From positions 1 to 37,094 of the IMG/VR virus record IMGVR_UViG_3300037504_000695: 37,094 nucleotides of DNA. One strand, given 5' to 3'. Below, in pieces: positions 12,834 through 20,723 of this stretch (position 1 is its first letter; every line of letters begins with the position of its first letter). Both the position numbers and the translations under genes were made by a program. Below the pieces are notes generated by a model, which had not been told where the DNA came from, ran no database searches, and saw only the letters and a program-made list of their open reading frames with translations. Origin of the DNA: a virus.

Positions 12834-13665
12834 TTTTCCTTTCTTCTATTATATCTGCAAACATTTTATATTTTCGTCTCACGGCATCCATTGTTTGTAT
12901 TCCTTCGAAATATATTTGTTTTTTCAACCAATCAAAAAAAACATTGATGTGATTAATGAATGATTGCTCAGTTAGATCTTTCTTGTGTACTTTATATGTT
13001 TTTTCAATATTCCTTTTAAGATTATAGGCATGAAACCTAGGTTTTTTGTCAGTCGGTGAGAATCCAAACTCGCTTTTGAATTTATCCATTAAAAGATTTA
13101 TAAATTTATTACCATGCTTTTGCTTATTAATATTTATATTAATATTATTATTCTTATTATTATTATTATTTGCGGGTACATTTTGTCCCCCCCTGGTCCC
13201 ATTTTGTCCCCCCCTAGTCCCATTTTGTCCCCCCCCGGACATTTTGTCCATTCCACTTATTCTTTTTTTATTAACCTTTTGTTTTTTTGATTGTGGATTA
13301 ATGAATCTAACAGTACCATTGGTTGTTTTTTTGTACCGAATATGAAAATATTTTTTTAGTTTTGAAATTGATCTTTTAACAGTTTTTGTACTACAACCAC
13401 AAACTTCAGATATTTGTTTATTAGTGAAATAAAATATATTTTTACAATTTGATATATAAAAATCTATAAAGCCATATATAACTATTTCAGTCATCGTCAA
13501 GCCTTCTTTGAGTAGCTTTGGGTAAAAAGGTATGAATTTTGGAGAAAAAACAAGAGACGCATTAGCTTTATTAATTTTTGCTTTTTCTTGTTCCTCTACT
13601 GAAAAAGTTTGTAAACGGTCCTCAAAATGCATACCGTTTTTTTCATATAATATTGACTTATCCAT
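12817..13665 (-). CDS. Replication initiator-like protein with N-terminal winged HTH (O-protein-like)
   Basis: 282 residues. About residues 45-112 form a winged-helix DNA-binding domain with the HTH segment FTNKQISEVCGCSTKTVKRS. Residues ~135-185 are a low-complexity linker (three GGQN(G/V) units, then Asn-rich). Residues ~185-282 are a conserved-looking helical domain with aromatic residues (FFDWLKKQIYFEGIQTMDAV). Domain order and linker match lambda O-type initiators, which bind iterons inside their own gene and recruit the helicase loader. The linker DNA here is itself iteron-like. AAAGG lies 5 nt before the ATG, under a large hairpin. Confidence 0.7.
   Translation of the reverse strand: MDKSILYEKNGMHFEDRLQTFSVEEQEKAKINKANASLVFSPKFIPFYPKLLKEGLTMTEIVIYGFIDFYISNCKNIFYFTNKQISEVCGCSTKTVKRSISKLKKYFHIRYKKTTNGTVRFINPQSKKQKVNKKRISGMDKMSGGGQNGTRGGQNGTRGGQNVPANNNNNKNNNINININKQKHGNKFINLLMDKFKSEFGFSPTDKKPRFHAYNLKRNIEKTYKVHKKDLTEQSFINHINVFFDWLKKQIYFEGIQTMDAVRRKYKMFADIIEERKNEKSK
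13118..13250 (-). other. Candidate replication origin inside the initiator gene: four iterons plus AT-rich tract
   Basis: On the + strand CATTTTGTCC starts at 13179, 13200, 13221 and 13240. The spacing is 21, 21 and 19 bp, and the first three units are extended by runs of 7, 7 and 8 C. Adjacent at 13118-13170 is an almost pure A/T tract of ATT repeats, suited to unwinding. Iterons plus an AT-rich element in the linker of an O-like gene mirror the lambda origin. Binding has not been shown. Confidence 0.55.
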
Positions 13666-19973: not shown

Positions 19974-20229
19974 AATATTCATAAGCATAATGTTGATTGC
20001 TCTAGTTGCACTTAATATTTATCAATATAAACGCCACACAACTAAAAAAAAATACAATGCTTGTATTGATCAAGCCTACGAAAATCGCACACAAACTTAT
20101 ATAAATTTTGGCGAGAGTTCTAAAAATCTAAATAATATCAATCAATTAAAACAAGTCATAGAGATTATTGAACAGAAGCACGACAAAGCTATCGAGTATT
20201 GCCAACTTAGATTTAAGGAAGAAATATGA
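19957..20229 (+). CDS. Single-pass membrane protein, 90 aa
   Basis: Residues ~4-24 (IIKIFISIMLIALVALNIYQY) form one membrane segment, followed by a basic patch and a helical soluble domain with two Cys (CIDQAY, YCQLRF). The shape is like an i-spanin or a small membrane-tethered helix protein. No spanin partner (lipoprotein) is seen, so the spanin idea is weak. It overlaps the previous gene by 17 nt and the next by 4 nt. Confidence 0.6.
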   Translation: MKKIIKIFISIMLIALVALNIYQYKRHTTKKKYNACIDQAYENRTQTYINFGESSKNLNNINQLKQVIEIIEQKHDKAIEYCQLRFKEEI

Positions 20230-20723
20230 ACAGACAAAAAATTAAGGATTTAATCAACCAACTACAAGAAGCTGTAAATGAAGGTGATTTACCCACCCCC
20301 GAAACTTGGAATGAGTTTATGAAGTTTAGGAAACAGGGAATTTCTTGTAATGATCCTAGTGAGGAGATTCAACTTGAGGCTGTAAAAAAATATGGATTTG
20401 TTATTAAATTTATCAAAAATCCCAGTGAAAAAGTTAAACTCGAGGCTGTTAAAGAAGATGGATTAGCTATTCAATATATTAACAATCCCAGTGAGGAAAT
20501 TCAACTCGAGGCTGTTAAAAATAATGGGTGGGCTATTAAATACCTTAACAATCCCAGTCTTGAGGTTCAACTTGAGGCTGTCAGAAATGATGGATTTTTT
20601 ATTAGATACCTTAAAAATCCCAGTCTTGAGGTTCAGTTAGAAGCTGTAAAAAAAAATCAAAAAGCTATTAAATACATCCACAACCCTAGACAGGAAGTTA
20701 GAAAAGCTGCTGGATTAATCTAG
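20226..20723 (+). CDS. Repeat protein with five 22-residue units (DUF4116/HEAT-like)
   Basis: 165 residues. After a 40-residue helical start come five units of NPS.E(V/I)QLEAV(K/R).(N/D)G.(A/F)I(K/R)Y(L/I). followed by a half unit. This pattern is that of DUF4116-like or variant HEAT repeats, which form a helical solenoid for protein binding. AAGGA precedes the ATG. It is the last gene of the + block and ends over the stop region of the opposing 32-aa frame. Partner unknown. Confidence 0.75.
   Translation: MNRQKIKDLINQLQEAVNEGDLPTPETWNEFMKFRKQGISCNDPSEEIQLEAVKKYGFVIKFIKNPSEKVKLEAVKEDGLAIQYINNPSEEIQLEAVKNNGWAIKYLNNPSLEVQLEAVRNDGFFIRYLKNPSLEVQLEAVKKNQKAIKYIHNPRQEVRKAAGLI
20352..20711 (+). repeat. 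Tandem 66-bp repeats within the repeat-protein gene
   Basis: Five consecutive 66-bp units encode the 22-residue repeats. Phrases such as AATCCCAGT and TTGAGGCTGT are nearly identical from unit to unit, so copy number could vary by recombination. Confidence 0.7.

Follow-up and report, generated by a model that had tools for sequence, protein, structure and literature searches.

A candidate replication origin inside the initiator gene of a tailed phage, with iterons that track one residue of the initiator's recognition helix

A segment in the middle of a replication initiator gene of a tailed phage is very probably the replication origin of that phage, at which the winged helix–turn–helix (wHTH) domain of the initiator would bind a set of iterons, a neighboring A/T tract would open, and the C-terminal domain would recruit further machinery, the encoded linker being a by-product. 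The arrangement is that of an in-gene origin of the lambda O or RepA_N kind, and we infer from it that the initiator binds and fires an origin whose cognate site may be read from one of its residues. More broadly, O-like/HTH_36 phage initiators from several bacterial phyla probably share a common iteron architecture, in which the half-site NNNCAAAATG lies in the linker of the gene and residue 3 of the recognition helix is the main determinant of its variable bases (K/R going with GGAC, S with GGTC, and A/G/S with GCTC).

The window, meaning the whole stretch of DNA that was analyzed, is a complete virus record of 37,094 bases, and the initiator gene is surrounded by a tailed-phage genome encoding a terminase, a RusA-like resolvase, a portal, and a major head protein. 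The initiator matched PHROG 678, "replication initiation O-like" (E 1.7e-10), as well as PHROG 428 (E 4.6e-9), and it only just passed the curated cut-off of Pfam HTH_36 (PF13730), with 25.3 bits against 25.0. No close relatives of the initiator were found in IMG/VR, and only marginal matches were found in phage records; therefore, the comparisons below were made by motif-first and family-first sampling. The features discussed are as follows.

13665 to 12817, minus strand: initiator gene, 282 aa (Pfam HTH_36, PHROG 678, AlphaFold2 model)
Domains of the initiator: N-terminal winged HTH, aa ~49–122; disordered linker, aa ~128–183; helical C-terminal domain, aa 184–281
13351 to 13392, minus strand: recognition helix, aa 92–105 (S92-T-K94-T-V-K-R98...), assigned from sequence, model, alignments, and covariation
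13240 to 13249, minus strand: iteron 1, GGACAAAATG, read as DKM in the other frame
13221 to 13230, minus strand: iteron 2, GGACAAAATG, read as GQN
13200 to 13209, minus strand: iteron 3, GGACAAAATG, read as GQN
13179 to 13188, minus strand: iteron 4, GGACAAAATG, read as GQN, closest to the A/T tract
13124 to 13171, strand not given: A/T tract, 47 of 48 bases A or T, beside the iterons toward the part coding for the C-terminus; candidate unwinding element

On the plus strand, CATTTTGTCC occurs at 13179, 13200, 13221, and 13240, and because the initiator gene lies on the minus strand, the iteron of the coding strand is GGACAAAATG. The initial annotation had described four copies with spacings of 21, 21, and 19 bp within an O-like initiator gene, and this was borne out by their positions, all inside the gene, by the Pfam and PHROG matches, and by TRF, which reported a 21-bp tandem array at 13179–13249 with a score of 107. 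The array is located mid-gene, about 420 nt downstream of the start codon. The sole perfect 13-bp dyad among the copies, GGACATTTTGTCC, is at iteron 1 (13237–13249), and a near-perfect dyad, GGGTACATTTTGTCCC, is present at iteron 4 (13174–13189); the copies at 13200 and 13221 are half-sites. The neighboring tract, previously called A/T-only, does adjoin the array but carries one C at 13153. The AT content was 87% downstream of the array versus 73% upstream and 72% in the whole gene. The tract may serve in unwinding, by analogy with the lambda arrangement. An A/T-rich flank was found in 32 of 63 relatives (p 0.27) and is thus not general, and it was present in 18 of 25 within the GGAC class. 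DnaA boxes were not enriched. A GC-skew shift had been anticipated at this locus, but the skew did not turn at the array and gave no origin signature.

Within the window gene, GGACAAAATG is read in two frames, once as DKM and three times as GQN. Taken by themselves, the three GQN copies might have arisen by tandem duplication of 21 bp in frame; however, the fourth copy lies in the DKM frame, 19 bp off, so that no in-frame duplication accounts for it. When the same protein was recoded synonymously with the phage's own codon usage, four copies of GGACAAAATG were regained in 20 of 20,000 recodings, and no shuffle of the window attained the observed count of relaxed matches. The array is above chance and is very probably not a protein repeat. 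Another gene of the window (20226–20723, plus strand) encodes about five degenerate 22-aa repeats with a 66-bp DNA period and about 76% matches; its repeat is conserved as protein, unlike the iterons.

A scan of DNA alone retrieved the two-copy array pattern from 62 IMG/VR stretches, compared with 18 for a reversed-motif control. The three-copy pattern was found in 17 reference-genome stretches belonging to Clostridia, Bacteroidota, Treponema, a Halomonas-type proteobacterium, and Campylobacterales. Initiator-like ORFs with the array are among the stretches from Clostridia and Bacteroidota, whereas those from Treponema, the proteobacterium, and Campylobacterales have repeats in a single frame or arrays between genes. 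Replication initiators from Bacillota, Bacteroidota, and many unassigned phages carry the array in shifting frames (GQN, DKM, or TKC), and 19 of the 30 ORFs with arrays in at least two frames matched the commonest "replication initiation" PHROGs. The set of single-frame ORFs includes collagen-like tail fibers, which provide an internal negative control. Judged from these sequences, GQNVP, DKMS, and TKCP are a single DNA site read in three ways, often in the same gene. The same two observations, mixed frames in this gene and in its relatives, together with the covariation of iteron and helix described below, support the earlier proposal that the GGQNGTR repeats are a by-product of DNA-level iterons. 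A DNA repeat that is kept while its reading differs was indeed found, both within the gene and across relatives, and the opposite pattern, a conserved protein linker over scrambled DNA repeats, was seen in none of the relatives compared.

The scans also returned arrays of other kinds. In L209, L210, and L213, tandem arrays of GGACAAAATG with 22-bp spacing and up to five copies lie outside any ORF of at least 100 aa, and these could be the ends of transposons or origins that stand on their own. In six viral contigs (L125, L139, L155, L158, L170, and L173), pairs of GGACAAAATGCGGACAAAATG with 11- or 22-bp spacing occur in shifting frames in an ORF of ~178 aa ("...RIDNELHDKLYEYYNNNKDRYSTFTSAIRSL..."), which may encode a further DNA-binding protein whose sites lie in its own gene.

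The sequence of the iterons follows residue 3 of the recognition helix, as is expected if the HTH of the initiator binds them. The prediction for GGTC was fixed before the GGTC and GCTC array scans, and the helix was scored blind to residue 3; the mixed-frame ORF of L152 was left out of the helix counts since its picked "helix" falls in an HNH-like stretch. With GGAC arrays, residue 3 was basic in 25 of 25 cases (K13 R12). GGTC arrays gave S in 16 of 18 (S16 R2), and GCTC arrays gave A, G, or S in 18 of 20 (A10 S6 G2 V1 R1). After thinning of near-duplicates, position 3 reached a z of 14.9, compared with at most 2.6 at the other helix positions tested, and a basic residue 3 was associated with GGAC (Fisher 23/0 against 3/24, p 2.4e-11). 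The initiator of the window, with K at position 3 (Lys94, the specificity-linked residue) and GGAC iterons, fits the rule, and R98 of its helix is invariant in the alignments. The family-first sample contributed L350 (SEST) with GGTC and L397 (SEKT) with GGAC. Exceptions were L505, L536, L593, and L219, the last combining SEKT with GGTC. On a tree of initiators from which the helix columns had been left out, the class of the iterons and that of the residue changed 17 times each, and the GGAC label was not significantly clustered. Among independent pairs on well-supported branches, 3 to 5 of 5 agreed and none was opposed, a number too small for p <0.05. As a pattern of covariation, the rule holds firmly for GGAC and well for GGTC and GCTC. 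That GGGC arrays would go with Asp was likewise predicted ahead of the scan, and this was not supported: only 12 stretches were retrieved, one with D and the others with S or K. In L174 (1927–2556, minus strand), a short HTH (DEKTIRRWINKAS) is followed directly by DKMSGLSDKMS; its residue 3 is K, which fits the rule.

A natural exchange of iterons was found between two Staphylococcus-type genes, those of Staphylococcus phage L-m44 (L217) and of an IMG/VR locus (L123). Their initiators are 93% identical, with a nearly identical C-terminal part, and most of their differences fall within or close to the recognition helix, which reads SESTIKRTITSL in L217 and SERTIKRTFGSL in L123. From L217 to L123, all three iterons switch in concert from GGTCAAAATG to GGACAAAATG (GGTC to GGAC), in both frames, and the spacers between them are almost unchanged. 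Among Staphylococcus-type genes, the pairs of helix and iteron were SER with GGAC, SES with GGTC, SL[IM] with GTATC, SNV with TGCTC, and SVM with TGTTC. L222 and L309, also of Staphylococcus type, carry palindromic iterons TGCTCAAAATGAGCA together with the helix SNVT and form a further specificity class.

The structure of the initiator was predicted with AlphaFold2, from an alignment that omitted rows from annotated records. The blocks of the wHTH were modeled confidently (pLDDT up to 96), linker residues 128–183 were mostly below 50, and a helical C-terminal domain followed. The recognition helix was modeled at residues 93–105, with Lys94 at its start. The best solved folds for the N-terminal domain were 4pql, 4pt7, and 5kbj, the last being a Rep–DNA complex, and the top four PDB matches were RepA_N initiators, at E about 0.01 and a TM of about 0.52 by target. 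Among viral models, some of the best matches are named replication initiators and replisome organizers.

The location of an origin inside its initiator gene is well established, being known from a few model systems such as lambda and pSK41. The lambda O gene carries four iterons mid-gene beside an A+T-rich tract (PMC7466680, PMC5043065), and the lambda origin and the window are alike in having mid-gene iterons spaced by ~20–24 bp with an adjoining A+T-rich tract. The lambda iterons are also read in several frames (0, 2, 2, 1), as in the present array. The likeness to the lambda O/origin arrangement that had been proposed for this segment therefore holds for these three features, but the A/T flank does not extend to relatives in general. 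The repeat had also been thought unrelated to that of lambda. Its sequence does differ from the lambda iteron ATCCCTCAAAACGAGGGA; however, in both, inverted half-sites rich in G+C meet on an A-run. Each lambda iteron is an inverted repeat, whereas only one copy in the window is a perfect dyad. The HTH of lambda O lacks the SxxT[ILV]xR helix, so that the residue rule is inapplicable to it.

The RepA_N plasmid initiators of pSK41 and pTZ2162 have their origin within rep, and they resemble the initiator of the window in having centrally placed repeats and a central linker. In pSK41, four Rep boxes lie centrally in rep, and the central domain is a linker that the protein can dispense with (PMC5703833). 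For RepA_N iterons, semi-palindromic repeats that converge on poly-A have been described (PMC7145576), and GGACAAAATGTCC fits this pattern. The initiator of the window differs in that no RepA_N domain (PF06970) was among its Pfam matches at E <= 0.1 and the fold E-values are only about 0.01. In hybrid Rep proteins of the pPR9/pUSA03 type, an HTH_36 (pfam13730) N-terminal domain and the adjacent in-gene origin form an exchangeable, working mini-replicon module (PMC5703833); these proteins and the initiator of the window share the HTH_36 N-terminal domain. Nothing relevant on the motif, its peptides, or the residue rule was found in the literature searched, a search outside which most subscription journals lay, so that absence is not proved.

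Taken together with the known systems, the following mechanism may be proposed. The N-terminal winged HTH would bind the four GGACAAAATG iterons, which follow one another at intervals of about two helical turns along one face of the helix. Once bound, the array would bend and strain the DNA such that the neighboring A/T tract opens, and recruitment of host helicase or primase machinery would fall to the C-terminal domain. The GGQNGTR linker would be disordered and a by-product of the sites in the DNA. Binding, strand opening at 13124–13171, helicase recruitment, and the status of an active origin are all predicted here, with lambda O and pSK41 Rep as the models.

The repeats might instead serve the protein, as a flexible Gly/Gln/Asn-rich linker that arose by in-frame 21-bp tandem duplication and has no function at the DNA level. 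Three copies out of four do repeat in frame as 21-bp units, and collagen-like tail fibers show that GQNG repeats with this DNA core can arise at the level of the protein. This explanation is nevertheless very unlikely given the different frame of the fourth copy and the rarity of the same DNA string among synonymous recodings (20 of 20,000). Moreover, the motif appears in the proteins of relatives as GQN, DKM, or TKC, often within one gene, and it changes together with the DNA-reading helix.

Two other explanations accept that the array is a protein-binding site. It could be an operator at which the initiator or another factor controls transcription of the replication genes, with the origin elsewhere; a winged HTH that binds the array could autoregulate, the GC skew is without an origin signature, and some arrays of GGACAAAATG are intergenic (L209, L210, and L213). 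However, an operator would be poorly placed about 420 nt past the start codon, the mid-gene layout serves as an origin in lambda O and pSK41 Rep (PMC7466680, PMC5703833), and the pPR9-type HTH_36 domain with its adjacent region is a working mini-replicon (PMC5703833), which makes the operator explanation very improbable. Binding by a conserved host protein rather than the initiator would account for a motif that crosses phyla, and the same 10-mer does recur in elements of unrelated hosts. A host factor does not predict that the class of iteron follows the helix residue of the initiator itself in divergent genes, nor that it switches between two near-identical Staphylococcus-type genes, and we consider this explanation extremely improbable.

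An in-gene origin bound by its own initiator thus remains the preferred reading of the segment, and the same DNA element is found in the initiators of elements from unrelated hosts, tracking one helix residue. Sequence could thus serve to locate the origins in many uncultured phages and to predict their mutual recognition. If the shared architecture is true, the location of the origin, and probably cross-recognition and incompatibility, would be readable from sequence alone, and the linker peptides GQNVP, DKMS, and TKCP in databases would be traces of DNA sites. Puzzling repeat peptides in annotated phage proteins would then be explained as by-products of such sites, and the one-residue rule would make the specificity between initiator and origin testable in vitro by single substitution.
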